Assembly: GCA_021018995.1 (NCBI GenBank)
Contig: CM037587.1
Coordinates: 72,001,604 to 72,065,603, forward strand
Length of the DNA: 64,000 bases
Reading direction: 5' to 3'
DNA from: Chloranthus sessilifolius
Taxonomy: Eukaryota > Streptophyta > Magnoliopsida > Chloranthales > Chloranthaceae
A model generated the notes under the pieces. That model had not been told where the DNA came from. It did no database searches and saw only the letters and a program-made list of their open reading frames with translations. Shown here one piece after another: positions 1,846-61,230 of the stretch (position 1 is its first letter; every line of letters starts with the position of its first letter). The translations under genes and the position numbers were made by a program.

Positions 1846-2212
1846 AATTGTGTGCATTCCTCCTAGCGGATAAACGAATTGCGCGCCAAGATTAAAGCAT
1901 GCATTCCAAGGCATCAAAAGGTTATTACGCGTCAGAATACAGTCATTTAACCGAGTTAAACGCAGGGTGAGAGGCACTGTATTAGGGCGGTGGCCAATTA
2001 CTGTTGAAGTGACTGTTGGCATTCGCACGTGCACCGGTTTGGGCACTTTATGTGATTTCGCACCTGGCGGGCAATGCGAAACCCAGTGGTCGGGTTATTT
2101 TGAGCAGGCGACGATTAGGTTACACACTCAAGATCGGTCGTGTAATCCGAATTATGCGCGATTAGAGTGGTGTGTGATTGGTTTAGGCGCCTAGATTTAT
2201 GCGCGCGATTCA
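1846..2212 (+). repeat. cluster of GCGC-centred half-palindromes upstream of the PMD-like gene
   Basis: Loose repeats of a motif close to GAATTGCGCGCAATTC lie in this interval, for example GAATTGCGCGCC, TTATTACGCGTC, ATTCGCACGTGC, AATTATGCGCGATTAG and TTATGCGCGCGATTC. They end just before a TATA box. The core resembles that of the array in the Tat LTR at 19.5-19.9 kb, which suggests that this promoter belongs to, or came from, a mobile element of similar type. Spacing is irregular, so this is a binding-site cluster and not a satellite. Confidence 0.55.
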
Positions 2213-2221
2213 ACTATTCCC

Positions 2222-2228
2222 TATAAAT
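2222..2228 (+). promoter_or_regulatory. TATA box of the PMD-like gene
   Basis: TATAAAT in the context CCCTATAAATGG lies about 180 bases before the first plausible coding bases, directly after the GCGC motif cluster. Position and context fit a plant core promoter. No transcript evidence is available here. Confidence 0.55.
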
Positions 2229-2401
2229 GGCTTAAAGTTCTTCATTTTTATCGCGCGATCCATTTTGGTCTCCGATTTTCTTTTTTCTTATTTCTTTGCA
2301 CTCCGATTTTTGTGTTTTTGTGATATCTCATGATCCGGTCGTCCATTTCAAGCACTGTTTCTTTCATTCTCTTCAGTTCTTTGAGCTCTTTGTTTTAGGA
2401 T

Positions 2402-5265
2402 GGAGTATGAGGGTGTGGGTTCTATCCATCTATATTAGAGATGGAGCAGATGTTATCGGCAGAGATTGGTGAGTCTTCCGAGGCTTGGACCAGTGTCGTT
2501 GCTGTGGTGGTGATGGGTCGAGAGCCCGTGGTGGAGCCGAGGTTGGCTATGGATAGGGTGCTTCAAGTGTTTTTGATGCACTTCCTTGGTGCAATGCTCT
2601 TTTCTTCTTCGACTTGGGGATGCCTCACTAGATTATTTCTGATGATTATTGGGTATTTAGATCGGATTCCTACCTATGCGTGGGTGCGGCCACGTTGGCG
2701 CATCTCTATGAGCAGCTTTACCGTCGGGGATAGGGCATCGTGTCAATCAGAGGTTTCCTTCCGTTCATCCAGGTGAGTTTTAGTTAATTGGTATCATGAT
2801 GTTTTTAGTTTGGTTAATTTTTTTAGTTGTAGTGACGATCTTAGTGTTTCTTCTCATGCATCATTGTTGTTGCTATGTTTTCTTTTTAGTTTTGGGCGTA
2901 CGACCATTTCACTTTTCTTTGTCCGGGGGTTCTGGCGGAGATTACGTTCACGTTCCCGCAGATGCATGTGTGGAGGGAGGCATTGAGGGGTTGTCGTTGG
3001 TCTTCGGATCTTCAGACTGGACGAGGCCTCTTCGAGGACATGCACGCGGGGTAGGTATGTATCGTCATGTTCTTATTTTGCTTTGTCTTGTTTTGGGGTC
3101 CTTAGGATCTAAGATTTCATTGATGGGCTCGCTTGCTTGTTTGGATATAGGTTATCTGAGGTCCTACGAGGAAGGGGAGGACGCTGACGTGCCCGTGATT
3201 CAGTCTGGCTGGCCCTTCTTCGATGTGGAGATATGGGTCCATTGTTTTGAGAGGGTGGAGAGGATCCACATATCTCGATTGGTACGGCAGCTAGGGCTTG
3301 CTTACGGAGTCCCTCTAGAGATTCGCCATAAGGTGGCGAAAAGGATGATCGACCCTCCTGGCGGAAATTTTATGGAGCAGATGGCGCTTTAGATAGCCGA
3401 TTTTAGAGCTAGGGGGACCAGCGTTACAGGGACGCATGATGAGGCGGACGTCCGAGAGTATGGGAGATGGTTTGTTTCATTAGGTGTTGGGCGCCTCTTC
3501 ACACATCCCTTCCATGGGAGTGGTTCTTTTACAGTCGGCGGGCCGGAGTTAGTGTCAGCATTGAGGGAGAGGCTGGCGGTACTGGAGCAGGGCCATCTCA
3601 TTGCCAGCGTGCGAGGGGCGTTAGATGCCCTTCATAGGGAGATGGAGTAGATGGGGTGTGCTCCTCGTCCTGATGCGGAGATGTTGCACTCCTTGACCTT
3701 CTCAGTTGCTCAGGCTAGGGCAGTGGAGGATGAATTGGGGGCTCAACTAGCGAAGACTCGACGACTATTGGTGAGTTAATTTGTTGGTCTTAATTGTATT
3801 GCATTGACTTGGTCTTTCAGTCGTTCTAACATAGTTGCAGTGTTTTATTTTATCTCTAGCAGTCTGAGAGGGAGGCCAAGGTCGCCAGTCGTACGGTGAT
3901 GATCGAGCTGTTGTGCTACCAACAGGCCAGCCTAGCGATGGAGGCCAGTCTATGTTCTGAGATTGACCGATTGGCAAGCGTCTATATGCACTTGGTTTCG
4001 TTAACTGTTTAGTGTCGTGAGCTTTCTAACTCATGTGTCTTATTGTTATTCACAAAGAGCCGAGCTCGCTGCTGGGGGTCCCGTTCCAGTATTTGATCCA
4101 TCTTCAGTTGCTTCCTCCAGTCGAGAGGATCCAGCGATGGCCCAACTTAGGGCCAAGCTAGATCATTGGGTAAGTTCCTCATTCTTCCAATTAGTTTGTG
4201 TAATTGTATTAGTTTGTTAAGTTCACTATTTTACTTTCTTAATAGTTTACTAACATCATGTGGTATTTTAGTGCCGGGTTACTGAGGATTTGCAGACGAG
4301 GGAGGCGACTGCTGGCTCTCTACGTCCCGAGAGTCAGGTATAATTTCTGGTTTGGCATAATTCAGTTTAGGTTACTTCCTTCTATTTGTTCTGCTATATT
4401 TTGCTTTGGCTTGTTTGTTTTTCTTTGTGCAGGCAACTCCAGACTCTGCTCCTGAGGCTCTCCCTCAGGAGTCTGTTCTTATCCCTACTCAGGTACATTT
4501 TAGTTATGACATTTATGGCTTATTTGTTATCGTAGCATTTATCTAATGTATTTGTTCATTTTCATTGCAGTCATCTAGGTTTGCTGTCCCTTTCGTGACT
4601 CTCGCCGATCCCGTGACCATGGAGACGGTCGAGCAACTTTTGGAGGAGAGGCTGGATCTTGTATGGTCCTTTCCTTTCCAAAGTTTTTTTGGTTCATATA
4701 TGTATATATTGGCTTTATTTGACTTGGTATGGTTACGTAGGTTCGTCAACTTGAGGAGGTGTGGCTAGAGGCGACACGAGCGCGCGCCACTCCTGAGGCA
4801 AGATGGATCCTCGGGGAGGTGCAGAGTCGTGAGGACTTGGTTATTAAGATGATGGTCAAGCAGAGGACTTAGGGGGAGGCATTGGAGGCGGCGCATTGAA
4901 CGACATGAGCGGAGATGCAGGTGACGCATCGGACGACATGAGCGGATCGGTTGCAGTATCATCTGATGAGGAGTGAGCGGGGGACGCATAGATTGGCTAG
5001 TCGGCTTGATGGGTCAGAGTCGAGGGCTATGGGTTCTTCAGCTGGGCAGTCTCGTCACACCTCTCATGGTCAGGTCAGGAGTGATACTCGTGAGGATTCA
5101 GTTGTTCGGGAGCTTCATGCGGGGTATCCTCCTCGTTCTCGATCGAGACTATCTATTAGCCAGACGAGTGAGGGGGGTTCTGTAGTTGGGCCTCGTCGCC
5201 TAGAGGTTCCGAGGACTTCGGGTGCCAAGATTGTATTTTTTGATGATCAATCTACAGATCTCTGA
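2402..5265 (+). pseudogene. multi-exon PMD-like (plant mobile domain) gene with coiled tail, decayed
   Basis: Three successive stretches resemble the plant mobile domain (aminotransferase-like PMD, PF10536 family): AATLAHLYEQLYR with RGFLPFIQ (to 2770), FWAYDHFTFLCP (2890-3050), and ERVERIHISRLVRQLGLAYG (3151-3390). They are separated by short GT-AG intervals (2771-2889 and 3051-3150). A charged, partly coiled-coil tail follows, split into small exon-like blocks by further GT-AG intervals. It ends in an Arg/Ser-rich frame (4951-5264). PMD proteins occur as host genes (the MAIN/MAIL family, nuclear, linked to silencing and meristem maintenance) and as passengers of Mu-like and gypsy elements. 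In-frame stops show that this copy is not functional as it stands. The exon boundaries are my reading only. The dense intron structure argues against a retrocopy. Confidence 0.6.
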
Positions 5266-5371
5266 GCTGATATACTAGCGACAATGGTTCTCGTCCATCC
5301 CAATGACAACGTAGGGAGTAGGGGTGTGTGTGTGTTTATTTTGTCCATTGAGTGTGTGATGTGTATATATA

Positions 5372-14640: not shown

Positions 14641-15042
14641 CTAAGAATTGACTGAACAGATCATCGAAAGTTTCTATCCTATAAAGTGGGTGTGACAGCC
14701 CGAATTTCGGCATCCCAAAATCCATGCCATCAGCACGACCTTCAAGGCCGTGCCCTGGGTCCTTTACAACACAATGATATATGCAAGCCAAAACTGAAAT
14801 TGAAGCACACGTAGCTACCCTAAATCGAAATCTCAAAATAATATATTTGGTCTCGCAAGGCTGTCCTTGTCCCATGCCAATTCATGGACATAAGGACATA
14901 CCCAAAAGTTAAATGATAATTATTCATCCTAGATGTTTAATCAAGAGACAGAAATTAAAGCATTCGAAATAAAGAGGCTCGATATACCAAGCCATACATA
15001 ATACTCTCTCTCAACTCACTCTCAGAGTATGCAGTGGGTTTC

Positions 15043-15146
15043 CTAGAAGAATTCCTCGGGAGGAGGTTCCGACTCTTCTATGGCCACGAACACCGAGGCC
15101 CTTGGATTAACTTCTCCCGAAGTCTTTGCTGCCGCTAGTCCTGGAC
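15043..15146 (-). other. short acidic reading frame in LTR A, after an acceptor-like site
   Basis: After the sequence CGTCGCAG the minus strand has two bases and then 34 codons including the stop (104 bases in all), ending in PPPEEFF. The same module has the same length in the opposite LTR copy at 59300-59403 and in element C. The amino-acid content is acidic. No known domain. Whether it is translated is unknown. Confidence 0.6.
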
Positions 15147-15579
15147 CTGCGACGTATAGTCTAAGGGGTGAGCTACATCCTAGCTCCGTAGGGAAAACAA
15201 AAGAACATATAGATCATCCTTCACACATATGTCAGTAACCTAACCAGCATTGAATTTTCAAGAAATCACTTATGTACAATATTTTGAGTAACAGGAATAA
15301 CCCAATGGTTCCGACCAATACTTAGCATATTTTTGTTTATTCTCCTTATAGGTTTGGTTGTGAATTTGGCCTAATCACTTAAATCTTAACTTAAGTAGTC
15401 CTCGAGCAATATAGCATCGAGCCCCGATGGAATACCCGCCATCGTCGTCTAACTAGACAGTTGTTGTGTGTATTCCCTGGGAATACTGCCCGAGCCCCTT
15501 TCTCATAGGCGGCGGGGTCTATTCTCAATCTACATCCCTGGGATGTGTTATAAATGTACGGATTGGCCGCCGTACCGGT

Positions 15580-15637
15580 CACGGATATCCTGCCGAGTCA
15601 GTCGTGGGTATCCCGCCACGTCGGTGGGGTATTCTAA
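15580..15637 (-). repeat. GGATATCC tandem block of LTR A
   Basis: Three imperfect units of about 22 bases built on GGATATCCTGCCGAGTCAGT. Related blocks occur in LTR A' (58806-58878) and in both LTRs of element B, although the palindrome arrays of A and B have different cores. Confidence 0.65.
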
Positions 15638-16096
15638 TCAACCTTAAATAATAAAAATATCAATGTGCTTTACATATAGTTATTCACCGTGATTGTGCTA
15701 AATATATTACATTAGGCCTTATCACGTTACCTTTGTTTCTCTGTTTGTTTTCTTACGCATCCCTGGGATGCCACTTGCTTCTATTTTATTTCTCGTCCCC
15801 TGGGGACCTCAGGATTTTCCACATTGTAACACACACACACACCCTTATCATGAGGGTTTATGGAATATACACTATTTACATAGACTATACTACGCATATG
15901 AGTTCACAGAATAATGCACATGTTTCAAGAATATTCCCTACCTCGACGAATCTCAAGGCACGCCTGCCCTTAGAGGGTTATAATGCATCAACCTACATTT
16001 GAAAAAGAAATAGTTTTAGAATGATCTAAGGTCATTGGGGTGTACGACACCCAAGTTTCTTATATTAGAAAACCAAGATCTGAGTGGTCACCAGAT

Positions 16097-16345
16097 CTCG
16101 CTCGCGTGGCTAATTATCCTCGCTCGAGCGGTCACTTGACTTCGCTCGAGCGGTCTCTTGACCTCGCTCTAGCGGTTAAATCGAGGTCGCTCGAGCGGTT
16201 AAATCGAGCTTTCGAAATATGACCGTGGACCCTCGCTCGAGCGAGCTCCCCTTTAGTTTTAGGGACCGCTGGAGCGAGCCCAGAGTCATGCTTATATCTG
16301 TTCATCCTCGCTCGAGCGAGCCTTTTTAGACCGCTCGAGCGAGGA
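16097..16345. repeat. array of CGCTCGAGCG palindromes in LTR A
   Basis: About nine copies of CGCTCGAGCG followed by G or AG, in irregular spacing of 15-40 bases, a few with single differences. The core GCTCGAGC is a perfect palindrome with a central CG-containing CTCGAG. The matching array in the opposite copy is at 58034-58284. Confidence 0.85.
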
Positions 16346-16852
16346 ACAACGATTTGTCCCTCGATCAAGATCGAGAATATGCTTCCACTCATCATTTACT
16401 CTTTATCTTATACAAGGAAACATTTAGCCAACCTCTTTCCTACTATTTAAAACATTCCTAGGCATCTATCATTTCTCTGATGAAACCGCACCGGTCTGAT
16501 TTATGATTTGAATATCTACTCGGTTATCCGGCCTCCCTGGTTCGTCCTCCCGTCGTTTCCTCTGATCTCCTTTGCCGACCTAAGTCTCAACGAACCCTAG
16601 TTCTCTACCAGGCTCTTTTCTTCTTTCTCTCTATATTCTCCTTCTCTCTATTTAGGTTAGAATAGATTTACGTAAGGGCTCCTCTCTCTCTTCTTCACTT
16701 TTATATCTAAAATTTTAGGGATATACTAGTGTGTTTCCCACGTACACACTTAAAGTATTTGGGTCGTTTTGGTCTCCTTGTGAAACACATATACCTATGT
16801 GTGTATGCGTGCCGTGCACAAATCAGTGAAAAATCTGGGTTTTGACAGCGGG

Positions 16853-24577: not shown

Positions 24578-24904
24578 TGTGTAATTCACTGAAAAGTATC
24601 ACTTTTCACCGCTTAACCTAGCCTTTACTACACCTTAGAGCTATCTAATAATCCTCTGTTTAGCATGTTTTATAGTTGGTAATAACAGGTGCAGCTTAGT
24701 ACAAAGTCTATGTGTTTAAAGCCAAAAAGAGAGAGAATTCATGCTAAGATATGGAGCTGATGCAAGGACAGATGGAACACCATGGTGGTACACAACATAG
24801 TGACTATTTTGCATGCTAGGGTGGACCTAGGAAGTCCAACAGATGAGAGAAGAATGGATATGAGTGGAGAAAGCTGCAACAGAAGCATCTGCACTACAGC
24901 AGAG

Positions 24905-25450
24905 GAGCAGAAGTGTTGCCTCGCGCAGTCAAAAGTGTTGCCTCGCGCTGTTTAAATTTGTAGCAGCCACCTCGTGAAGTCAATACGTACAGCACAAAGT
25001 GAACTCGCGCATCTTAGTGAAGGATTGGCCTCAGAGAACTACTTCATGCAGTAGTCGCACGCTTCATTTGCTCTCAACACTGCAAGTCCTCGCGAAGTAC
25101 TTGCGCACTAGAACCTTCAGAAATCCCACTCCCGAAGCTCTCGTGGGGATCAAGTCTTAAAATAGCTGCGCGTGCAGTCTCACTAGACCGATTTATACAA
25201 AAGACTTCAGCAAACTCGCGAAGCTCTCGTAGCTCAAGAGGAGAGAGAGCTCCAGAAAATCTCTCGCGCGCGTAAAAGCCTAAACCTCCACTGCACGAGC
25301 TATGCTACTCACTACACAAGGAGCCTGGCGAGATCCAAACTCTTCTACTCGAGACCCTCGTGATGAGAATCACTTGAAGCTCTACTGCGTGAGCAAAGGC
25401 AAATCAATGCAAATTCTTCCTCGTGAGCGCATTTCAGAGCCAAACAACTG
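24905..25450. repeat. array of CTCGCG/CGCGAG motifs in LTR G
   Basis: Many copies of CTCGCG, CTCGTGA, CTCGCGAAG and CGCGAGC spaced 10-40 bases apart, including CCTCGCGCAGTC, CTCGCGAAGCTCTCG and CTCTCGCGCGCG. The inferred core is CTCGCGAG, again a CG-rich palindrome. It lies about 300 bases upstream of the TATA box. Confidence 0.6.
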
Positions 25451-25749
25451 CGCGATAAGCTAGAGCCTTTTGAGCGAGTGATATATTTCCAAGCTAAATC
25501 TCACCTCGTAAGCACTCTCCATACTGTGCGACTGCATTACAAAACCAAAGCCAACCCCACGAAGCTTGGGTCCTCCACTTCTCATTCCATACTCAGGGAC
25601 CTTTTAGGGATTTCCCCAAGTCCAGGGCACACATCCCGAGACCCTGATCTCTATGCATGCATCTCGAGGCATCCAAGGGTTATAACCAAGCCACGTCTGT
25701 CATAAAATTAGGGTTTAATCTCCTCTTGGCCAAGGCATCAATGAATGAG

Positions 25750-34350: not shown

Positions 34351-34403
34351 TCTTGTAGGAATGATAGGTATCCACCACATCTATTTCTCATCATCCATTC
34401 AGC

Positions 34404-36746: not shown

Positions 36747-36865
36747 CTACCCGTGCTTCGTACAAATAAAACAGTCCTCAGGATGGGGCCCTGAGTCCTC
36801 TTCCAAAGGCACGTATTCGGAGACCTCTTTATCCTGGTCCTCTGTACCAAGATCCTGATCGGAAC
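36747..36865 (-). other. short acidic reading frame in the 5' LTR of B
   Basis: After AGCTCATCCCTCGACTATAT (the counterpart of the box in LTR A) the minus strand has two bases and then 39 codons including the stop. They are rich in Asp and Glu, with PHPEDCF near the end. Length is 119 bases with the same entry phase as in A, C and F. The acceptor AG is less clear here than in the other families. Confidence 0.5.
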
Positions 36866-37864: not shown

Positions 37865-38050
37865 ATCGATCGAATGGTTTAGTCACTGAGAAACTAAACC
37901 TTTGCTTAGGTGCCATATTCTGATCAATCGCTCGATCGATTTCTTCAATTCATTCGATCGGAATTAATTATGATCGAACGGTTTCTTCAAAACTCACATA
38001 CCTTTCACCCATTGATAAAACCGATTAAATGGTCACTTATTTCAATCGAA
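37865..38050. repeat. CGATCG palindrome array in the 5' LTR of B
   Basis: Shorter version of the 3' LTR array, with units such as CGATCGAATGGTTT, CGCTCGATCGATTTC, TGATCGAACGGTTTC and CAATCGAACGTTTTTG. Confidence 0.8.
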
Positions 38051-38654
38051 CGTTTTTGTCAAACTCTGCACATTCTCGGAATTTTAACTTCTTTAACTTG
38101 TTTTTCTTAATTACATATCTCCTAAATTTCTAATTTTCTCACACATACATACCAAGATTAACATAATTGAACAATACCACTTCATATAGATTTCTTACCT
38201 TAAATCAATATATCGTTCGATTCACTAGCTCGTACACAGCTAGGGCTTTATAATTGGAGCTTCAGAGTCTCCGTGATCCCAAATCTGTAATCTCACACAC
38301 TAAAATCCTAATTCCTCGCACACATGATCACACGCATTTAAAGCTCACTCTCTCTCTCTCTCTCTCTTCTCATTTACTCTCTTATTAACTCTCCAACAAC
38401 TAAAGGTAACAGAATTTAATTCTCTCATATTTGTCTTTTATACTTACAAGATCAACTAGAGTGTTAAACACATATACCGCACCTCGGCGTACGTTACCTC
38501 ATGAATGGTTCATACACCTATTCATCTTTTCTTTCTAAATCAAAAACTTAAGTCACTTGACTCACCATAATACTTTATCTTATTTGGTGCGTGACTAGTC
38601 GGGCACGCACATTGAGATGTACTATTCAAAGGTCCAAATTTTTGAGTCTTTACA

Positions 38655-45883: not shown

Positions 45884-46165
45884 TGTGGCGACCCGAGATC
45901 TCACAACCTCTTGATTGTAAAGTCTTAGACCGTACCTTCGTATCGTGAACCATAGAAACATAATAAGGTGATAAAAGCACCTTAAACAGTAGAAGATAAA
46001 TTTTCTATAAAATATTCATTAATCAAAATAAAACTCAAGATAATGTTCTTATTCCAATAACAAGTCCAGCATGATTAAAGCTTAAACGGTTTTGATAAAA
46101 TACTAACTGATCAATGTCTCATTTATTTAAAACCATTAATAATAACTAGAAAGAAAAATAGCCAA

Positions 46166-46269
46166 TTAGGCCACGAAGCCATCATCGCCATTCAGTCCAA
46201 TTTTTTTAGCACCACGTGCCGTCTCATCGCCATAGACCCATACATTGTCATCAGCGACACCTGTCTCAT
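46166..46269 (-). other. short acidic reading frame in the 3' LTR of C
   Basis: After GGGTGACCAG (acceptor-like) the minus strand has two bases and 34 codons with the stop, 104 bases, the same length and phase as in LTRs A and A'. It contains GVADDNVWVYGDETARG and ends DDGFVA. The 5' LTR copy is at 53088-53191. Confidence 0.6.
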
Positions 46270-46508
46270 CTGGTCACCCACATCAACAAGGGGTGTAAGT
46301 TTACACTTGTATGGACTAGATATACAATCCATTGAAGCATAAAATATCAGTTATAGCCATATAAACATTTCGGTATATTTCATGTGTGTATGCATGTGGC
46401 ATGTATAATCTTAATAAGCTTAAATGAACTAAACATAAACATGGATATCAATGTTACATGAATGCATCATTTCTTTTAATTTCATCTTTCTTTTCATTTA
46501 ATTCACGT

Positions 46509-46860
46509 TAGACTCCGTCCCGCTCAAGACGTTGGATCGTAATTATGCTTATCTCTTATTTAGTTAGACTCCGTCATGCACTAGACGTTGGGTCTAATGA
46601 ATCATATCATTTATTACATGTCAAATTTCGTCCTGCTCAAGACGTTAGGCTTAATCATGCTCATCATACTCTTGTTTAGTTAGACTCCATCTTACACAAG
46701 ATGTTGGGTCTAATACCTTCTTAGGCTCCATCATGTATAAGATGTTACGTCTAATGCTCCTTAATTGTGTTTAGTTAGACTCCATCAAGCCCAAGATATT
46801 TGGTCTAATACCTTCTTAGACTCTATCATGTACAAGATATTGGGTCTAATGTTCGTTGAT
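46509..46860. repeat. tandem 40-base hairpin repeats in the 3' LTR of C
   Basis: About eight imperfect units running TTAGACTCCATC...AAGATGTTGGGTCTAA. Each unit's ends are complementary (TTAGACYC with GRGTCTAA), so each could fold. The copy in the 5' LTR is at 53431-53780. Confidence 0.8.
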
Positions 46861-47099
46861 CATGGCTTGACATTTTATCATATTTTACGTGTCTTGATTG
46901 TGTATTATATAGATCATCATAAAACATGTAAAGTGTATGAGAGTGATATCATAATACATAAGCATTTAAGTGCATTTAATCATGGTACATAAATATTGAA
47001 GTGTACACAATCATGGTGCATAAACATTATAGTGTATATCATACGATCATAGTGCATAATGACATTTAATGATACTGTTATGAGAATAACTTGAATATA

Positions 47100-47530
47100 G
47101 AACTTAACTATTCACACTCAATCTATTGAATTCATGTTCAGGCTCAATCTATTGAATTTAGCTCAATCTATAATTTCTCAATCCATTGAATTCTATTCTT
47201 GCTCAATGGATTGATTTCTCAATCCATTGACATAAATCCATGCTCATGCTCAATCTATTGAGTTTTACTCAATCCATTGAGTTTTGTCTGTTACCATTTA
47301 ATATTCATCCTCAATCGATTGACATCCAATCGTAAAGCGATTGACATAATTATGTGTATTTTTTTAAAACAAAATCATCTATTAGTATCTACTTTAATAT
47401 TCATCCTCAATCGATTGACATCCAATCGTCAATCGATTAACATAATTTTGTGCCCAGTCTCAATCTATTGAGTCCGGCTCAATCTATTGATTTTCTCAAT
47501 CGATTGAATTTTCAATCTCAATCGATTGAC
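47100..47530. repeat. TCAATCGATTGA palindrome array in the 3' LTR of C
   Basis: More than fifteen units of CTCAATCGATTGACA or CTCAATCTATTGAATT variants in irregular spacing. Core TCAATCGATTGA is a perfect palindrome around ATCGAT. Many copies carry T in place of the C of the central CG, consistent with decay of methylated CG. Confidence 0.85.
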
Positions 47531-48303
47531 TCAAATCCATGAGCACACATCAAAATACATCAAATCACATGGTGGGATTTCAACCGTCTTCTTCTTAATC
47601 AAAATTATCAACATTAAGGATCACCAATCATAACATGCATTTATTTAATCATCCATTCATTATTCATGAAATAAACTCACTAATTTACATAAAAATCTAT
47701 TTTAAAAAATAATTATTTTAAGTTCAATGGAAAGCATTATTTCTCCATACTTAGATCGATCGTACCACCACGATTAAGATCCCAACAATGAAGATGATTC
47801 TAGCAGGAGGTGAAGGCCACTTGAGAAAGTACGTCAACGTCTCGCCGATCTTTCAAAGAAGGGTTCTAGGAAGATAGATCTAAAATTTCTTCTCTAAGGT
47901 CTCTAGGGTTTCTGACGGCTCTATTCTTAAGAAGAACTCTATATGAGATTATAATTTAGGGTTCTCCGTAAGACACTATAATATTTTAGAGATTATCTGT
48001 TGTTAAGCTAACGCACCAAGGAAGGGTGTATAGGCTTTTACCTCAAAGTCTAAAATAGAGATTTAGAACACACATAATAAGGTTTGATCCCTAAACCTTT
48101 TATCTAGAACTTAAAGCCTTTAACCAGTAGGCTACCACATAACTTGTGTCCATAAATGGTGGAAATAAATATAAGAGCTTGGAAAACCAAAATATGTATT
48201 TTTAGTTAAAATCTTTTGAAAAGTCACGGTATGCGGGAACTACGATATTAAGCACATACATATATTTTATGTGTATCAAAGACATAAAATTCAGATCATA
48301 ACA

Positions 48304-48316: not shown

Positions 48317-48339
48317 ATAAAAATTTCATCCTCAAACTT

Positions 48340-51060
48340 GAGTCATACCTCACTAGAAGAGATGGGGGTAGTCCCTCCTGATAACATCCTCGCGCTCCAA
48401 AGTGGCTTCCTCGCGAGAGTGGTGCTGCCAAATCACAAGGACCAGCGATATAACTTTATTCCTCAGGGTTTGTTCTTTCCGATCAACAATCTGAATAGGC
48501 ACCTCCACAATGGACATATCCTTATAAACCTCCAAGGGTTCCCAGTCGATAACGTGAGTAGGGTCTGCCACGTATTTCCTTAACATGGATATGTGAAAAA
48601 TATTGCGCACATCGGCAAACTTTGGTGGTAGCTTGACTCGATATGTCGTTTCTTCGATTCTATTCAAGACTTTGAATGGTCACACGAATCTCGGACTAAG
48701 TTTTCCTTTCAACCCGAATCTCATTACTCCTTCAATTAGATCCCAATTCCTACGCTTCAAATCAGCGTAACTCTTCTGTCTGCTCTACGCAGTCCGCATT
48801 CGTTCTCGGATCAACTAAACTTACTTTGACGTATCTTCAATAATTTGAGGCCCTAGAAAACTTCTCACACCGACCTCATCCCAATACAAAGGAGTTCTGC
48901 AACTTCTCCCATATAAGACTTCATACGGGGCCATTTGTATAGTGGACTGGTAACTATTATTATGCGAACTCTGCAAGAGGTAGATGCTCATCCCAATTGC
49001 CTCCAAAGTCCAGTACACAAGCGCGAAGCATGTCCTCTAACACTTGATTTAGTCTTTCGGTCTGCCCATTTGTCTGAGGATGAAAAGCAAACCTAAATTT
49101 CAACTTAGACCCCATCCCATCTTGAAATTTCTACCACAATCTCGACGTGAAACGACGATCTCTATCAGATACGATATCAGCAGGCACACCATGTAATCTG
49201 ACAATCTCATGAATATAAATATCCTCCAACTGAGAAGCTGAATAGGTCATGTGATATGGAATAAAATGAGCCGATTTAGTCAATCTATCGACTACAACCC
49301 AAATAGCGTCGTTCCTCTTCAGGGTTCTTGAAAACTCGGTGATGAAATCCATGCCGATACTCTCCCATTTCCAACCCGAAATTGGTAGTGGCTGAAGTAA
49401 CCCAGGTGGTTTCTGGTGTTCAGCCTTGACTTGCTGGCATGTGAGACATCTTGCCATGTAGTCAGCAATCTCTCTCTTCATATCATTCCACCAATAATTT
49501 TTCTTCAACCCTTTATACATCTTATTGTTCCCAGGGTGAATAGATAATTTAGACTTATGGGCTTCATCTAAGATCTCCCGTTTCAATTCTATATTATCAG
49601 GTACACAGTAGCATCCCTGAAACAGCATCATCCCATCATCTCTGACAGTAATCTTAGACTTCCCACTGTCCTTCAATTTTAAAAGGGTAGGATCTTCAAG
49701 CTGTAGTCTCCTGATTCGATCAAATAATAAAGAGGTGATAACAACATGTGAAAGCAATGCTCTTGATCGAATCACCTGTTCTGGAATAAATCAGCTGAGG
49801 GCATCGACAACAACATTAGCCTTCCCCAGATGATACTTGATCTTGTAATCATAATCGATCAAGAATTCCAACCATCTTCTCTGCCTCATATTCAAGTCTT
49901 TCTGCGTAAAAAGGTATTTAAGACTTTGATGATCTGTGGAGATGATGAATTTCTCTCCATACAGGTAGTGTCTCCAGATCTTCAACGCGAATATGATAGC
50001 AGCCTGTTCTAGATTATGCGTAGGATAACTCTTTTCATGTTCCTTTAGCTGCCTGGATCCATAAGCTACAACTCTCTCATTCTGTATCAGGACACCACCT
50101 AGTCCTTTATACGACGCATCGGTATTAACGGTAAAGCCAACACTGCCAGAAGGTATCACTAGAATGGGAGCAGTAGTCAACCTTTTCTTCAACTCGAGAA
50201 AGCTCTTCTCGCACTCATCGGTCCAAATGAATTTCACATTCTTCTTGGTCAGCCCGGTAAGAAGTCCTGAGATCTTTGAGAAACCTTCCACGAACCTTCT
50301 ATAGTAACTAGCTAAGCCAAGGAAACTTCGTACATCAGTAACACTTTTGGGACTCCCCCAATTCACAATGGCTTCAATTTTTTCAAGATCAACAGTAATC
50401 CCTGCCTCAGAAATTCTGTGGCCCAAAAATGCCACCTCACGCATCCAGAATTCGCATTTACTCATCTTAGCATACAACTGGTGGTCCAATAGGGTTTGTA
50501 AGACGATCTTTAAGTGCTCGGCGTGCTCTTCTTCGGACTTGGAGTAGATCAGGATGCCATCAATGAAAACCACCACAAACTGATCCAAGTAAGGCTTGAA
50601 AATACGGTTCATCCTGTCCATAAAGGTTGCAGGGGCATTAGTCAATCCGAAAAGCATTACTAAAAATTTAAATTGCCCATACCTCGTATTGAATACCGTT
50701 TTAGCTATATCGGACTCTCTCACCCTCAACTAGTGATATCCAGATCTCAGATCGACCTTAGAGAAATATTGTGCGCCTTACAGTTGATCAAATAGAACAT
50801 CGATCTGTGGCAATGGATACTTGTTCTTAATCGTCGCCCGGTTCAACTGTCGGTAATCAATGCACAACCTCTGAGAGCCGTCCTTCTTTACAAATAAAAT
50901 AGGAGCACCCCATGGTGACTGACTCCTTCTAATAAAGCCCTTATCTTATAGTTCCTATAACTGTTTCTTCAATTCTGATAGTTCTGCAGGCGCCATCTTG
51001 TAAGGAGTCTTGGCTATCGGTGCAGTGCCAGGTACGAGCTCAATCTGAAATTCGACTTCC
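48340..51060 (-). pseudogene. pol of element C: RT, RNase H, integrase, chromodomain end (fossil)
   Basis: RT/RNase H (49791-50729) shows [32 protein letters not shown] at the catalytic position, [28 protein letters not shown] and [11 protein letters not shown]. Integrase (49131-49775) shows CLTCQQVKAEHQKP, IGMDFITEF, WVVVDRLTKSAHFIP and ADIVSDRDRRFTS. The C-terminal part (48353-48667) shows HISMLRKYVADPTHVIDWEP and LVIWQHHSREEATLERE, the Tekay chromodomain-like end. Long frames persist, but it is not intact. Confidence 0.9.
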
Positions 51061-51080
51061 CTACTCATGGCTTTGTCACC

Positions 51081-51566
51081 TCATCGGAAAACTCGAAATT
51101 CATTTACAACAGGAATCGATGATATATCTCCTCGCTTTTCCTCATTTTCTAATAAAGCAAAGAGTTCTGGAATGGCACCCTTTCGTGCGCCCTTAAATTT
51201 AAATGTCGGTCCATCCAAAGGGGTAAAAATCACGGTCTTGGCGAAACAATCAAGGGTCGCATGAGATTCAGTGAGCCAATCCATCCCTAGGATAACATCA
51301 AAATCTTCGAAGTCTAATTCAATTAGATAGACAACTAATGCATGGGTTCCAATCTGGACAAAACATCGAGGATAGACTCTGTCAGCAAGCACACTCTTTC
51401 TCAGAGGAGTTGCTACGGTCAAAGGAATGCTCATAGGAGATGAATCCTTATCAAGACGCTTAGCAAAGTTCAAGGAGATGAATGAATGGGAAGCACTCGA
51501 ATCCAAAAGCACATGAGCAAAAAGACCATCGATCAACATCGAACCTGAGCACCCAAGACATGCCAC
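51081..51566 (-). pseudogene. aspartic protease region of element C (fossil)
   Basis: A 161-residue frame with VLLDSSASHSFISLNFAKRL (active-site region), VYLIELDFEDFDVILGMDWL and HATLDCFAKTVIFTP. This is the Tekay protease and the linker to RT. Confidence 0.85.
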
Positions 51567-51869
51567 GACTTAAATTATTCAACGTAAGGGTATCATTCCA
51601 TTTTAAAGTTTAATATCTACCAGATCTTCATTAGTTCTTAACAAATTCATTTAATTCATTTTTGAAAATATTTTTGAAAAGTTGTTCATTTTACGCAAAT
51701 TAATATTTATTACATTACTACATAAAGAGGTATGAAAGAATTTAATCAAGAATTTTAAATAAACAAATATACCCTGAATGACATCATCTGAAGCTCTAAC
51801 ATTAGCATCAGATAGGGTATACACGTGGCCATTAGCCGTAATTGTCGCCGAAGGTGTAGCCCTTGATTC

Positions 51870-52840: not shown

Positions 52841-53087
52841 CAACGTAAGAATCGTACCTTCGTATCGTGAATCATAGAAACAAAATAAGGCGATAAAAGC
52901 ACCTTAAACAGCGAAAGATAAAATTTCTTTAAAACATTAATTAATCAAAATAAAACCCATGATAATGTTCTTATTCCAATAACAAGTCCAATATGATTAA
53001 AGCTTAAACGATTTTGATAAAATACTAACTGTTCAATGTCTCATTTATTTAAAATCAGTAATAATAACTAGAAAGGAAAATAGCTAA

Positions 53088-53191
53088 TTAGGCCACGAAG
53101 CTATCATCGTCATTCAGTCCAGTTTCCTGAGCACCATGTGCCGTCTCATCGCCATAGACCCATACATTATCATCGGCGACACCTGTCTCAT
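53088..53191 (-). other. short acidic reading frame in the 5' LTR of C
   Basis: 104 bases, same phase and position as 46166-46269. It contains GVADDNVWVYGDETAHG and ends DDDSFVA. The frame stays open despite the base differences between the two LTRs. Confidence 0.6.
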
Positions 53192-53430
53192 CTGGTCACC
53201 CACATCAACAAGGGGTGTAAGTTTACACTTGTATGGACTAGATATACAATCCATTGAAGCATAAAATATCAGTCATAGCCATATAAACATTTCGGTATAT
53301 TTCATGTGTGTATGCATGTGGCATATATAATCTTAATAAGCTGAAATTAATTGAACATAAATATGGATATCAATGTTACATGAATGCATCATTTCTTTTA
53401 ATTTCATCTTTCTTTTCATTTAATTCACGT

Positions 53431-53780
53431 TAGACTCCGTCCCGCTCAAGACGTTGGATCGTAATTATGCTTATCTCTTATTTAGTTAGACTCCATCATG
53501 CACTAGACGTTGGGTCTAATGAATCATATCATTTATTACATGTCAAACTCCGTCCTGCTCAAGACGTTAGGCTTAATCATACTCATCATACTCTTGTTTA
53601 GTTAGACTCCATCTTACACAAGATGTTGGGTCTAATACCTTCTTAGACTCCATCATGTATAAGATGTTGGGTCTAATACTCCTTAATCGTATTTAGTTAG
53701 ACTCCATCAAGCATAAGATGTTGGGTCTAATACCTTCTTAGATCCCATCATGTACAAGATATTGGGTCTAATGCTCATTG
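53431..53780. repeat. tandem 40-base hairpin repeats in the 5' LTR of C
   Basis: Same TTAGACTCCATC...GATGTTGGGTCTAA units as at 46509-46860, about eight copies. Confidence 0.8.
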
Positions 53781-54041
53781 ATCATGGCTTGATATTTCAT
53801 CATATTTTATGTGTCTTGATTGTGCATTATATAGATCATCATAAAACATGTAAAGTGTATGAGAGTGATATCATAATACATAAGTATTTAAGTGTATTTA
53901 ATCATGGTACATAAATATTGAAGTGTACACAATCATGGTGCATAAACATTATAGTGCATATCATACGATCATAGTGCATAAACATTGACATTTAATGATA
54001 CTATTATGAGAAGAACTTGAATATAGAACTTAACTATTCAC

Positions 54042-54738
54042 ACTCAATCTATTGAATTCATGTTCAGGCTCAATCTATTGATTTTAGCTCAATCTATTGA
54101 TTTCTCAATCCATTGAACTCTATTCATGCGTAATGGATTGATTTCTCGATCCATTGACATAAATCCATGCTCATACTCAATCTATTGAGTTTTACTCAAT
54201 CCATTGAGATTTGTCTGTTACCATTTAATAATCATCCTCAATCGATTGACATCCAATCGTCAATCGATTGACATAATTCTGTGTATTTTTCTAAAATAAT
54301 ATCATTTAATCCTCAATCGATTGACATCTAATCATCAATCGATTGACATAATTTTATATATTTTTCCAAAATAATATCATTTAATCCTCAATCGATTGAC
54401 ATCTAATCGTTAATCGATTGACATAATTATATATATATATTTAAAATAATATCATTTAATCCTCAATCGATTGACATCCAATCGTCAATAGATTGACATA
54501 ATTATGTGTATTTTTCCAAACAATATCATTTAATCCTCAATCGATTGACATAACTATGTGTATTTTTCTAAAATAAAATTATCTATTAGTATCTACTTTA
54601 ATATTCATCCTTAATCGATTTACATCCAATCATCAATCGATTGACATAATTCTGTGTCCAGTCTTAATCTATTGAGTTCAGCTCAATCTATTGATTTTCT
54701 CAATCGATTAAATTCTCAATCTCAATCGATTGACTCAA
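54042..54738. repeat. TCAATCGATTGA palindrome array in the 5' LTR of C, expanded
   Basis: Longer than the 3' LTR array. It includes a higher-order repeat of about 60-65 bases at 54230-54550, each carrying two palindromes (CCTCAATCGATTGACATC and CGTCAATCGATTGACATA) and an AT-rich spacer AATATCATTTAAT. Array length therefore differs between two LTRs that were identical at insertion. Confidence 0.85.
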
Positions 54739-55519
54739 ATCCGTGAGCACACTTCAAAATACATCAAATCACATGGTGAGATTTTAACCGTCTTCTTCTT
54801 AATCAAAATTATCAACATTAAGGATCACCAATTATAGCATATATTTATTTAATTATCCATTCATTATTCATGAAATAAACTCACTAATTTACATAAAAAT
54901 CTATTTTAAAAAATTAATATTTTAAGTTCAATGGAAAGCATGATTTCTCCATACCTAGATCGATCGTACCACCACTATTAGATTAAGATCTTAACAATGA
55001 TGATGATTCTAGCAGGAGGTGAAGGCCACTTGAGAATGTACGTCAACGTCTTGCCGATCTTTCAAAAGAAGGGTTTTAGGAAAATAGATCTAGAATTTCT
55101 TCTCTAAGGTCTCTAGGATTTCTGACGGGTCTATTCTTAAGAAATCTACATGAGATTATAATTTAGGGTTCTCCGTAAGATACTTACTATAATATTTTAG
55201 AGATTATCCGCTGTTAAGCTAATGCACCAAGGAAGGGTGTATAAGTTTTTACCTCAAAGTCTAAAATAGAGGTTTAGAACACACATAACAAGGTTTGATC
55301 CCTATACCTCTTATCTAGAACTTAAAGCCTTTAACCAATAGGCTACCACATTACTTGTGTCGATAAATGACAGAAATAAATATAAGAGCTTGGAAAACCA
55401 AAATATATATTTTTAGTTAAAATCTTTTGAAAAGTCACGGCATGCGGGAAATACGATATTAAGCGCATACATATATTTTAAGTGTATCAAAGACATAAAA
55501 TTCAGATCATAACACTAGG

Positions 55520-57355: not shown

Positions 57356-57651
57356 CTGCATCATCAAAGTGTGACGGCCCGACTTTTTCCCTTATATTAT
57401 ACGGGAAAGGTCGCATCGTCGGATCACCTAACATGATCCCTTCTTACTAGTGCATCTTGTACAAAGTATTATATTACATAAGCGGATTAATAACTCTTAC
57501 ATGCACACATATATTGTAACAACCCCAGATTTTCGGAACCGTACAAGCCATATGCCACGCACGTGTATGTGTGGTTCACAAGGAAACCTGGGTCAACATA
57601 TACACACGGTGTGTATATGTGTGTAACATATTTTTTTTCCCTTCCTTTCAC

Positions 57652-57659
57652 TATATAAG
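57652..57659 (+). promoter_or_regulatory. TATA box of LTR A'
   Basis: TATATAAG in CACTATATAAGTG, about 140 bases into the LTR. The equivalent in the opposite copy is at 16697-16706. Confidence 0.65.
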
Positions 57660-58033
57660 TGAAAGTGGAGAGAAGTCTCTCCCCTACGTAACATAATTTT
57701 AACCTAAATAGAGAGGAGGAAAATAGAGAAAGAGAAAGGAGAGTCTTATAGAGAAGAAAGGCTAAGGCCTTGTTGGAGTGTAAACCGGTGGAAGACCTGG
57801 AGAGAAGGTCGGACCAGAAACGTAGAGATCTCATCGAAGTAACAGGGATTCGAACGTTAGATCGAGCCGATTATGAGATCCGTCTATTTAGGTAAGAGAT
57901 AATGCTTGAGAAGTGCTTAGGTATGTCTTAATGATAACCTACAATGTATTGGGCAATGGCCGATTAATTATATTTAAGATTTAAGGAAATAGGATAGATT
58001 TCTTGAAGAATCACGGAGTGAAGGTTTCCGCTC

Positions 58034-58284
58034 CTCGCTCGAGCGATCTAAACGTCTCGCTCGAGCGAGGACAGAATATATACCTAAGAATAGTACGTTC
58101 TGGGCTCGCTCGAGCGAGACCCATATAGAAGGAATAAGCTCGCTCGAGCGAGGTATCACTTTAGGCTTCAGACACCTCGCTTTAACCGCTCGAGCGAGGA
58201 TAAGAGGCTGCTCGAGCGAGGCTTGGCAACCGCTCGAGCGAGGTTAAGAGGTCGCTCGAGCGAGGCTAAGCAACCACTCGAGCG
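58034..58284. repeat. CGCTCGAGCG palindrome array in LTR A'
   Basis: About ten units, mostly CGCTCGAGCGAG or CCGCTCGAGCGAGG, several in close pairs. Same core as 16097-16345 in the other copy. Confidence 0.9.
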
Positions 58285-59299
58285 AGGTACCAAAACTAAA
58301 ATTTAATTTCTTTTATGTATACAAATATACCTCATGTGAACTATGCGCTCTAGGAGTGCTAGTGACCACTGGTGACCATTCTAAGGCATGTCATTTCGCA
58401 TGAAATGTAGATTGACGTGAGATCAGTACGTGTCATCACTACGAGAAGGGACCACTGGGTTTTGCCTTGAGGTAGGGACTTATCGAAACATGTACATTGT
58501 TCAATTTCGCATATGTGTAGTACAGATCTAATTGCTAAACTAAGTATCTCATCATGTCACATAAATAGAGCGTGCGTGTGTAGACTTCAAAAAATGAAGC
58601 CAGAGGTCCCAAGGGGACGCAAGAACTACAAGATGAATACCTATATGATACGATATATCAGTAGCATCCCAGGGGTGCAGATGAGAATCAGTGGGGAAAA
58701 GAAAGTAAGGTGATAAGGCCTAATATATTAAAAATTAGCACAATCACGGTGAATAACTATATGTAAAGCACACTTGATATTTTTGCTATTTAAGGTTTGT
58801 TTAGAATACCCCACCAACGTGGCGGGATACCCACGACTGACTCGGCAGGATGTCCGTGACCGGTACGGCGGTTAATCCGTATATAGTAGCACATCCCAGG
58901 GATGTAGATCCAACAGTAGACCCCACCACCTAGGAGAAAGGGGCTTGGGGCAGTATTCCCAGGGAATACAAAATTGATAACTGCCTAGTTAAACGACGAT
59001 GGTGGGTATTCCATCGGGGCTCGATACTATATTGCTCGGAGACTATTTAAGTTAAAGAGTTAAGTTATTAGGCCGAATTCACAACTAAACGAGTAAAATG
59101 AGAAAGAACAAAACCATGCAAAGTAAGTAGTTGTATTCATCTTTTCCTTCAGTTATTTCGATTGTCCTTCCAGATAGTAACAGCAGATAAACTGTATTTT
59201 TCTTTTACTGCACAGCATATATGTCAGAATTAATCTATATGTTCTTTACGTTTCTCTACTGAGCTAGGATGTAGCTCACCCTTAGACTATACGTCGCAG

Positions 59300-59403
59300 G
59301 TGCAACACTCGCGGCAACACAGGCTTTGAGAGAAGTTGATCCAAAAGATTCGGATTTCGCGGACGGAGAAGAGTTAGAACCTCCTCCTGAGGAATTCTTT
59401 TAG
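59300..59403 (+). other. short acidic reading frame in LTR A'
   Basis: Follows ACGTCGCAG. Two bases, then 34 codons with the stop, including ALREVDPKDSDFADGEELEP and ending PPPEEFF. Length and phase equal those in LTR A, whose sequence differs at many positions while keeping the acidic ending. Confidence 0.65.
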
Positions 59404-60003
59404 AAGTTCTTTACGTTTAGAAGTGGTGAGTAGAGAGTACTCGTGGCTTGGAATGTCAAGTCCTTTCTTTTAAATGTAATTAAATATTATACTTTCCTTT
59501 TGACGAACCATCGGGGGTGATATGATTGTCACCAATGGTTCGGGACAGTTCCTTTGCTCATGAATTGGCATGAGATCGGAACTGTCTGTTGGTTGCTAGA
59601 CTTTGATGAAACACGGAGACTTAGTTAGTTCAAAGCTTTGGTATTTTGAATTATTGGCTTTTACTTGTTACTTGATGTTCCGCATAGATATAAGGTGCAA
59701 GACCTCGAGGGTCGTGCTGATGGCACAGATTTCGGAGTGACGAAATTTGGGCTGTCACATATATGACACACATCTGATATTCATTCATTTATCTAAAGCA
59801 GTAAAATAGACAAAGAGATATAAAATAGGAGGCAATAGGTGCTATGTATAGCTTTCCACCGATGACAACCATCCGTCATCTAAACAATGGAAAGAAAATT
59901 AATACATGCATAGGACTAAGTATCTCATCAAAACATTATAGTGTTGTTTTATACAAGTTTTCTCAAAATGTTTCTCTCAAGTATTCTTTCTCTCTCTAAC
60001 CTA

Positions 60004-60119
60004 TCAAGGAAAGAAGTCCTCTGCAGAATCTTCTTCATCTTTGTCCTCGTCCTCATCCTCCTCCTCCTCCTCAGGCTGGAAGGTAGGATCCCCTTCGTAC
60101 TCCATGTCCCGATCAAGGC
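60004..60119 (-). other. short acidic reading frame in LTR F
   Basis: After CAAACTGCAG the minus strand has two bases and 38 codons with the stop. It includes a run of 14 residues of Glu, Asp and Lys (EEEEEDEDEDKDEE) and ends SAEDFFP. The box upstream, TAGCTCATCTCATGACTCCA, is the counterpart of that in LTR A. Confidence 0.65.
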
Positions 60120-60422
60120 CTGCAGTTTGACATGGAGTCATGAGATGAGCTATCATCAAAGCTCAGTAGGGAACTAACATTGCTAGACCATATGTTAGTA
60201 TGCCAATTCACGTTCTTGATGCATAAAATACATATCAAAGCACATCTTATCTTACATTATATCTATTCTAGAAACTTACAATATAATCAACAAGTAATCC
60301 TGCTAATATTTTCATCATCTAACGGAATCATGTTGGAACGAGTACAAGGAATCATACTGAAAACATATTTAGCTTAAACAAGCTATCACACGTAAAACAT
60401 ACTTATACAAGAAACAAGATTT

Positions 60423-60560
60423 TCAAGCTCTCGAGTTTCCAGGATCACTTGTCAAGCTCCTGAGTTAGCGAGATCAGTTGAACCGAGACACCAAGCTCCC
60501 AAGTTAGCGGGATCACTTGTTTTCAAGAATACATAGTCAGGCTCCCGAGTTAGCGGGATC
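60423..60560. repeat. tandem repeats in LTR F
   Basis: Four imperfect units built on AGCTCCCGAGTTAGCGGGAT plus CACTTG, spaced 25-55 bases. They occupy the place where LTRs A and B have GGATATCC units and C has 40-base hairpin units. Confidence 0.75.
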
Positions 60561-61119
60561 ACTTGGCTCACAACGAAGCAAGCGTGTATAAGAAATCAAC
60601 AAGACGTGAAACTTTCATGGTATCAGGCATGTGAGAGCATCATGAGTAAATAACGTATTCAGGTATATAAAGCATGAGGTTATGGAATCAATACTAGGCA
60701 AAACGTAAACATATATATATATCAAACCTAAAAACTAGCATGACTAGATATGTACGTATTATAACTTACTTTTTATATATGTATTATAGATTTGTAACAT
60801 GACATAGTATCCACAACACTTACTTCATATAACTTGCTTATCAAGACAGAATGAGAAAACAACATATAACAAACAAGGTCAAATCCCTACCTTACGATTA
60901 AGCCTATGTGTTACACATGCATGAATCCAAGCTAATGTCCCTTTTTATGAGCTCATCGTGAGCACCTAAGATGCATATAAACGTGTTCAGCATGTTTTAG
61001 CATACATATTCTTGGTCACCATAGACACATGCATACACATACTGGGTTACCATAGACCCTTCATGTGACTAACACGTGTCGAACTAGACAAAACACATCC
61101 CATAAACCAAACACACACA

Positions 61120-61230
61120 GGGTTGCCTCAGCAAGGCACAGGGTTACCGCAACAAGCCCTTTAGCTTAACCCTTGCCGCAGCAAGCATGATGTTGCCTCG
61201 GCAAGCCTGATAAACATGGCTTGCTGCGTA
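61120..61230. repeat. TTGCCGCGGCAA-type palindrome array in LTR F
   Basis: Units GTTGCCTCAGCAAGG, GTTACCGCAACAAG, CTTGCCGCAGCAAGC, GTTGCCTCGGCAAGC and CTTGCTGCG. Inferred core TTGCCGCGGCAA. Confidence 0.7.

Follow-up and report, generated by a model that had tools for sequence, protein, structure and literature searches.

Introduction

Why retrotransposons that lie close together in one plant genome should carry dense arrays of short palindromes in their long terminal repeats (LTRs), with a different palindrome in each family, is the question raised by the 64,000-nucleotide stretch of Chloranthus sessilifolius DNA analyzed here (assembly GCA_021018995.1, contig CM037587.1, forward-strand positions 72,001,604 to 72,065,603). 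This stretch, called “the window” below, looks like plant DNA and contains old Ty3/gypsy elements, and positions are counted from its first letter. Three LTR families in it, labelled A, B and C, contain arrays that exceed anything produced by shuffled sequence, and in element B the array of the LTR recurs in front of an extra gene. Because the sites in these arrays are dense, family-specific, dyad-symmetric and conserved between insertions, the most plausible reading is that a dimeric protein binds them, and judging from the letters alone it is highly probable that the arrays are collections of dimer sites.

An earlier reading of the window (the original prediction) had listed seven palindromic cores, symmetric with CG in or near the centre and irregularly spaced, and had taken them for the sites of a co-evolving dimeric DNA-binding protein, following the logic of the VANC anti-silencing proteins of VANDAL transposons. 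The present work separates the cores that form genuine arrays from those that do not: three of the seven motifs are solid, one (G) is probable, one (F) is marginal, and two (E, and the motif assigned to a Tat element and a PMD-like promoter) are unsupported. The interpretation that seems best as a whole, at slightly less than an even chance, is that the arrays are dimer-site arrays and that the product of the extra gene is the leading guess for the protein that binds those of element B.

Detection of arrays

Palindrome scans were carried out with 10-mers and 8-mers (100 shuffles each) and with 7-mers (200 shuffles), and the figures given are the numbers of shuffles as good as the real sequence. 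In the 10-mer scan each of the seven arrays of the three families (two of A, three of B, two of C) was matched by 0/100 shuffles. A scan for perfect dyads in 500-bp windows, with 2036 shuffled windows as the control, found that a single 5-base arm could recur as many as 13 times in a window, the shuffle maximum being 2, and all windows over the listing thresholds (a count of at least 3 at k=5 or at least 4 at k=4) belong to the left or right A array, to the array of the 3' or 5' LTR of element C, or to an internal array of element B.

Family A is present in the window as two solo LTRs only. The left one (14691..16847, minus strand) is flanked by GTGGG and GCGGG and has a TATA-like sequence at sense offset 143; its array (16121..16341) consists of 8 CGCTCGAGCG sites with centre spacings of 22, 22, 23, 46, 33, 42 and 23. 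The right one (57515..59759, plus strand) has the target-site duplication TATAT/TATAT and a TATA-like sequence at sense offset 140, and its array (58034..58287) consists of 9 sites with centre spacings of 22, 49, 34, 46, 22, 22, 22 and 22. Site counts in the A and C arrays admit up to 1 mismatch, to CGCTCGAGCG and TCAATCGATTGA respectively. The A arrays that had been proposed near 16097 and 58034 are borne out by 14 exact copies of GCTCGAGC, located in 16122-16333 and 58037-58254.

Element C lies on the minus strand, with its 5' LTR at 52853..55514, its 3' LTR at 45931..48303, and between them a pol region (49131..51569) encoding protease, reverse transcriptase (RT) with RNaseH, and an H2C2 integrase. 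The 5' LTR array (54044..54733) has 19 TCAATCGATTGA sites, partly in 75-bp tandem units, and the 3' LTR array (47118..47529) has 14; the 13 exact copies of TCAATCGATTGA fall in 47311-47518 and 54238-54722, in agreement with the C arrays expected near 47100 and 54042. Both C LTRs also contain a second type of repeat (46494-46860 and 53416-53783), with units of about 95-116 bp and dyads of gap 8, whose arms, judged by eye, resemble TTAGACYCCATC...GATGTTGGGTCTAA and are possible hairpins.

Element B is also on the minus strand. Its 5' LTR (36400..38654) runs from TGTAAAGACTC to GGCTGCCACA, has TATAAAAG at sense offset 215, and is followed by the primer-binding-site-like TGGTATCAAAGC (36397-36386), a kind of match that often arises by chance; the 3' LTR (27290..28740) has lost its 3' part. 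The broken coding region (31469..35764) encodes gag, protease, RT, H2C2 integrase and SH3_Tf2-1. Profiles identify gag (PF03732, 35764-35474), protease (PF08284) and RT (PF00078), rve stays under Pfam's cut-off, and a chromodomain-like segment near 31516-31493 was recognized by eye, with no profile. In both B and C the pol domains protease, RT and integrase stand in Ty3/gypsy order, and both elements may be chromoviruses of the lineage named Tekay. Between the two elements lies a gypsy pol fragment with a 261-bp direct tandem duplication (41259-41782, 90% identical) which by eye resembles the RNaseH part of B.

The B sites are dense at all three places where an LTR array had been predicted (27884, 30938 and 37865), with the qualification that the array at 30938 is internal and lies outside the LTR. 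The arrays contain 9 sites in the 3' LTR (27880..28142), 7 degenerate AAACCGWTCGAWCGGTTT sites in the 5' LTR (37865..38055) and 10 internal sites (30938..31265). The 10-mer scan gave 11, 9 and 13 matches in the 3' LTR, 5' LTR and internal array, where the best shuffles reached 5, 5 and 6, and the 5' LTR array was weaker with 8-mers (1/100). The B motif is degenerate: exact TTCGATCGAA has two copies in the window (31060 and 31164), both in the internal array.

The remaining cores fare less well. No exact copy of CTCGCGAG, the G core, is found at 24905, the sole exact copy in the window being at 48410, but a weak and decayed cluster of CTCGCGA/CCTCGCGAGG-like sequences at 24900..25480 passes two tests: the 10-mer scan gives 8 matches against a shuffle maximum of 7 (0/100) and the 7-mer scan 0/200, while the 8-mer scan is weaker (4/100). 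The F array expected at 61120 consists of three TTGC-4-GCAA dyads (61123..61204) and is marginal in the palindrome scans (11/100 and 41/100; 7-mers 7/200). A gapped-dyad scan places these three dyads in one window where 0/2552 shuffles reached three; counts of three also occur at repeats near 18.1, 46.5 and 53.6 kb. The arrays claimed for E at 57217 (100/100 and 4/100; 7-mers 27/200), for Tat at 19530 (100/100 and 7/100; 23/200) and for the PMD-like promoter at 1846 (64/100 and 92/100; 10/200) do not rise clearly above shuffles and were rejected. In the window as a whole TTGCCGCGGCAA and TTGCGCGCAA have no exact copy and GGACGTACGTCC has one.

Elsewhere in the window, 35-bp tandem repeats at 18112-18583 contain AT-rich CTAAT-3-ATTAG dyads without CG. 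Near the PMD-like place (2236-3650) there are a TATA-like box at about 2222 and a CpG-rich stretch (CpG observed/expected 1.31 in 1840-2260), and the open reading frame (ORF) 2784-3389 has no Pfam match at E 0.001.

Composition, exclusivity and spacing of the sites

When the sites are symmetrised, the half-sites are nCTCGCTC or ACCGCTC for A (17 sites), AAACCGWTC for B (26 sites) and TCAATC for C (33 sites), so that all three motifs centre on TCGA. The expectation of CG in or near the centre holds for most sites of A (15/17) and B (20/26), but CG is not invariant in C, where it occupies the centre of 13/30 of the sites with perfect arms. The other 17 C centres are CT or AG (11) and CC or GG (6); since they are never TG or CA, they are to be regarded as site variants and not as products of methylation decay.

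The motifs are largely exclusive to their own families. Matches to the A site number 8 and 9 in the A arrays, with 1 in the array of the B 5' LTR and 1 in the background; matches to the C site number 14 and 19 in the C arrays and 0 elsewhere in the window. The more degenerate B pattern has 9, 7 and 10 matches in its own arrays, compared with 24 background matches (0.4 per kb), and it also matches 4 and 2 times in the A arrays and once in Tat. The matches inside the A arrays arise because the A and B cores are alike, CGCTCGAGCG and CGWTCGAWCG differing mainly in one base per half.

This likeness is one reason for considering that the arrays could be enhancer clusters for one host transcription-factor family, in which flanking bases drift around a common core and an extra gene merely shares the regulatory module. 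Since the A and B motifs are little different and two published Sirevirus motifs are alike in layout, a shared host factor fits these observations equally well. All three motifs centre on TCGA and those of A and B fit CGNTCGANCG; a similar layout is seen in CGGTCGACCG (Vitis) and ACAATCGATTGT (Tnd-1), which are two of the 13 motifs in Table 3 of the Sirevirus report (PMC2829016); LTR motif repeats are described as regulatory sites in that report and in PMC10760457; and element C has arrays without any extra gene. It is, on the other hand, unnecessary for a single unchanged factor that motifs should be largely family-exclusive within one genome and should differ between related LTRs. The chance given to the host-factor explanation here is somewhat below even.

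The spacing of the sites, described in the original prediction as irregular, is only partly so. Among the 66 spacings that measure 15-75 bp, 22 bp is the commonest (17/66), and the values tend towards multiples of about 10.5 bp. A test for phasing with this period gives p<0.0002 on the 66 spacings, but these are not independent of one another, owing to tandem duplication; on the 31 unique spacings p is 0.045 at 10.5 bp, 0.02 at a period of 10 and 0.22 at 11. The phasing is suggestive only.

Palindromes might also act in RNA: if any two copies can pair, LTR transcripts would form long duplexes from which small RNAs and silencing could arise. Five array RNAs do fold better than dinucleotide shuffles (z of -8.8, -10.2, -2.8, -5.1 and -5.5), and a small-RNA excess at the palindrome clusters of maize Sireviruses is mentioned in PMC10760457, citing Bousios 2016. 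When the spacers are shuffled and the sites kept, however, z falls to -1.3 (left A), -2.6 (right A), -0.9 (B internal), 0.0 (C 5' LTR) and +0.5 (B 3' LTR), and the right A array alone keeps a slight surplus, with 3/150 shuffles as good. The surplus of folding mostly follows from the sites themselves, and RNA structure as the selected feature was rejected; loop-free dyads with near-10.5-bp spacing suit recognition as DNA better. Action through RNA is considered very improbable, and the folding may be a side effect.

Conservation of sites and turnover of arrays

The two A LTRs are independent insertions, so the degree to which their sites agree reflects what was kept between them. The site cores are 95.6% identical, compared with a mean of 65% when the site mask is slid along the LTR, and slid masks reach the site-core identity at 5/2157 and 0/2244 positions. 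Sites were defined by consensus, in one sequence at a time. For the eight shared sites, 6/7 spacings agree within 1 bp. The LTR boundaries used in these calculations (right A LTR 57513-59757; B LTR ends 28737 and 38655-38656) are at most 3 bases off the final ones.

The corresponding test within an element rests on the two LTRs of a pair having been identical at insertion. In element B the sites are 78.6% and 83.3% identical, below the LTR mean of 91%; for the first value half of the site positions lie in gaps and all 1438 slides are higher or equal, and for the second 1317/1380 slides are higher or equal. In element C the sites are 95.2% and 96.5% identical against a mean of 94%, with 831/2372 and 203/2661 slides as high. 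As the sites are kept between A insertions and not clearly within B or C, selection appears to operate only while the elements move, and the data fit sites that are kept while elements reproduce and not after insertion.

The arrays themselves appear to change quickly. The left A LTR aligns with the B 5' LTR both before the arrays (101-226 with 180-304, a weak match at E 0.002) and after them (899-1015 with 966-1088, E 2e-6), and the right A LTR aligns with it from 1276 onward only. The string GTCGAGGTAGGGA occurs in the left A LTR (905) and in the B LTRs (972 and 1038), and the right A LTR has CTTGAGGTAGGGA at 958. Between these shared blocks lie the arrays, at offsets 503-775 in A and 594-860 in B, with different motifs. 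The C LTRs have no alignment to those of A or B; the two of them differ in length by 289 bp, of which about 278 bp are in the array and arose after insertion. The differing motifs between shared A/B blocks and the change within the C arrays both support the original prediction, in which A and B share flanking blocks and the cores between them are replaced more rapidly than the sequence around them.

Neutral slippage could be another source of the arrays, which would then be minisatellites whose symmetry is due to chance. The 75-bp tandem units and the post-insertion length change of C agree with such an origin, as do two related loci, L001 and L002 (see below), which have tandem repeats without CG palindromes. 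Slippage does not account for the A spacers being 51% identical between insertions while the site cores are 96% identical, nor for an internal B array that has the sites of the LTR arrays but not their flanks, and the minisatellite explanation is regarded as having very little chance of being correct.

Internal array and extra gene of element B

The internal B array comes after the integrase/chromodomain-like end of pol and before the 3' LTR. It has its motif in common with the B LTRs but not its flanks, with no alignment longer than 32 bp, and for this reason the possibility that it is a stray LTR fragment was rejected. Just downstream of the array is the TATA-like sequence TTTATATATATGG (30918..30930, minus strand), followed by a leader with a splice-donor-like site (30764-30751) and then by the extra gene (29308..30652, minus strand, ATG at 30652). 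The gene is broken into pieces in different frames (30503-30171, 30252-29986 and 29970-29308), after which come the polypurine tract and the 3' LTR.

The presence of the same array before the extra gene suggests that one factor acts on both this gene and the LTRs. In this proposal the arrays would be cis-regulatory clusters of sites for a dimeric DNA-binding factor, with one site type per family; the LTR arrays lie about 0.5-1.5 kb from the 5' end of the LTR, and in element B the same factor would act on the LTR promoter and on the promoter of the extra gene. The product of the extra gene is, by analogy with VANC, a natural candidate for that factor, a role that is possible but unproven, and as the leading guess it would bind its own promoter as well as the LTRs, would keep both promoters active or free of silencing, and would change its specificity along with the sites. 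That a dimer binds, which protein it might be, and what effect it might have on silencing or transcription are inferences from the patterns described above. These parts of the proposal are not equally secure: that the arrays are bound by an element-encoded protein has, on this evidence, slightly less than an even chance, and anti-silencing as the effect of the arrays is a rather unlikely possibility.

Evidence against an element-encoded binder

Several observations weigh against the proposal, and the first group concerns the extra gene itself. Its pieces have no Pfam match, although a weak match could be missed in a broken gene, and in NCBIfam they have one match at chance level (E 0.12); one piece has weak matches in PDB and NCBIfam (E 0.12-0.31), which were dismissed as chance. 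Two versions of the extra ORF found no relatives in a protein database that includes plant proteins, among candidates of 0.55-1.75 times the query length. Viral contigs likewise yielded no relatives. Structure prediction for a 110-residue piece gave a mean predicted local distance difference test score of 40 and was unusable. With no family match, DNA binding by the extra-gene product is unsupported by sequence; the ORF may resemble the plant-transposon domain PF20167, for which Pfam gave no match. The window also contains a single copy of B, and that copy is broken.

Element C has the largest array and yet no extra gene. Its last pol ORF stops about 0.8 kb short of the 3' LTR, and FEDE codons, recognized by eye, adjoin the polypurine tract at 48336; given this short gap and the resemblance of these codons to a pol end, there is no room for a gene of the B type. 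The selection test depends on one A pair only and on the alignment of a repetitive region. The A and B LTR arrays, furthermore, lie downstream of the TATA-like box (offset 140-215), unlike an ordinary upstream enhancer, and may on sequence grounds fall within a transcribed leader or intron (sense 38654-37680 and 57515-58480). Splice-donor-like AGGTAAG/AGGTAGG strings are present before and after the array in the right A LTR and in B, and only after it in the left A LTR. No convincing TATA was found in the C LTRs.

Related elements elsewhere provide evidence on both sides. Among the 120 matches listed for the C RT, those with a named organism are plants, except for two filed under bacteria. Eleven loci related to this RT were taken from public genome contigs, where they are probably contaminants; many of them are without complete LTRs, so that the absence of an array there carries little weight. 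The perfect-dyad scan gave a clear CG array in one of the eleven, L011, where CGCA-2-TGCG occurs five times at distances of 18-19 bp, and no clear one in the others (three GCCG dyads in L005, three dyads without CG in each of L001 and L003, nothing in the remaining seven). A degenerate scan of 5/11 loci, with 10 shuffles per window, found the CG-centred CTTGCGCAAG in L011 (10 matches, where shuffles gave no more than 4); the palindromes flagged in L002 and L003 were AT-rich and lacked CG, and none were flagged in L001 and L010. A primer binding site at 1235 lies downstream of the L011 array (704-788), which counts in favour of the proposal. In L001 and L002, which extend 1.8-1.9 kb beyond pol, there are LTR-side tandem repeats and no CG palindrome array, and the feature is therefore not universal. 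The L011 locus is NZ_VCHY01000050.1, in an assembly of Labilibacter sediminis, and is probably a plant contaminant whose CTTGCGCAAG array lies in a gypsy LTR at 500-800; the similar-looking contigs L001-L003 are in Mycobacterium, Geminicoccus and Solirubrobacter assemblies.

The notion of a co-evolving dimeric binder with VANC logic thus emerges in mixed condition. It draws on the symmetry and near-exclusivity of the motifs, their conservation between A insertions, the difference between the A and B motifs and the candidate gene of B; it is weakened in that it applies to three (perhaps four) of the seven motifs, that C lacks an extra gene, and that no VANC-like or DNA-binding family was found.

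Comparison with known systems

The closest precedent to these arrays is the repeated-motif array of the Sireviruses, which are Ty1/copia elements (PMC2829016, Bousios et al. 2010) and are not mentioned in the original prediction. The published motifs are family-specific CG-rich palindromes, of which each of the 13 elements in Table 3 has 8-32 copies, and they are located in the LTR and, for elements bearing env, upstream of the third gene as well. At least 8 dyad-symmetric copies are also found here, with 8 and 9 in the solo A LTRs, 26 in B and 33 in C; the Tnd-1 motif ACAATCGATTGT has ten bases in common with the C motif, and the Vitis motif CGGTCGACCG has the CGNTCGANCG layout of A and B. 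Boxes upstream of a third gene are seen in B as well (30938-31265), although the B gene is not recognizably env-like and C has no such gene. The systems differ in that B and C are Ty3/gypsy elements (A being known from solo LTRs alone), in that the CGG-CCG core of 12/13 published motifs, Tnd-1 being the exception, is replaced here by a TCGA centre, and in that the Sirevirus array is just upstream of the LTR promoter, whereas the A and B arrays are downstream of a TATA-like box, the promoter in this case being placed from sequence only.

The anti-silencing system of VANDAL and VANC (Hosaka et al. 2017, PMC5735166; Sasaki et al. 2023, PMC10398659) likewise involves motif arrays that are specific to a family and lie in noncoding DNA of the element, with motifs that differ between related families, rapid expansion and contraction, and classes of motif variants with which the CG, CT and CC centres of C may be compared. 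VANDALs, however, are DNA transposons, and the VANC motifs presented in these papers are not palindromic; VANC carries DUF1985/DUF287, whereas the pieces of the broken B gene are without a Pfam match.

Extra ORFs have been described in other plant LTR retrotransposons: gene23 of Grande, with its own promoter (PMC7264820), TRP28 of Retand, whose domain is said probably to bind DNA (PMC11963269), and the aORF of Tekay (PMC11728184). As in B, the extra gene of Grande and Retand is between pol and the 3' LTR, and in about half of the Retand elements this interval also contains tandem repeats that are specific to the family (PMC11963269), a combination of repeats and extra ORF that comes close to the situation in B. 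The gene of B is in sense orientation, whereas the Grande and Retand ORFs are antisense and that of Tekay is 5' of gag-pol. The promoter of the B gene has the palindrome array of its own LTR, and in the available portions of these papers such sharing between LTR and extra gene is not described for Grande, Retand or Tekay; the word stem “palindrom” occurs in PMC11963269 only within a reference and is absent from PMC7264820. In the open-licence literature, the titles and abstract openings among the matches listed mention no family-specific palindrome arrays in the LTRs of Ty3/gypsy chromoviruses.

What is already known, then, is the occurrence of palindrome arrays in the LTR and before an env-like gene in the Ty1/copia Sireviruses (PMC2829016). 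What is new here is their occurrence in Ty3/gypsy hosts, the presence of different motifs in related LTRs, the test of selection between as against within insertions, and, in a Ty3/gypsy element, an orphan gene preceded by the array of its LTR. A much wider generalization, which is improbable as it stands, is that the third genes of plant LTR retrotransposons of both superfamilies may encode self-targeting dimeric DNA-binders that dock on arrays in the LTR and in their own promoter, escape silencing and co-evolve in specificity, so that “env-like” and orphan genes would be analogues of VANC. The identity of the protein that binds LTR palindrome arrays was left open in the 2010 Sirevirus report (PMC2829016), and element B, which has the same array on its LTR and on the promoter of an orphan gene in the other superfamily, names a candidate and brings the question within reach of a test. 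Should the extra genes prove to be the binders, a little-understood group of retrotransposon genes would acquire a function, and LTR retrotransposons would come under the same arms-race logic as VANDAL and VANC.

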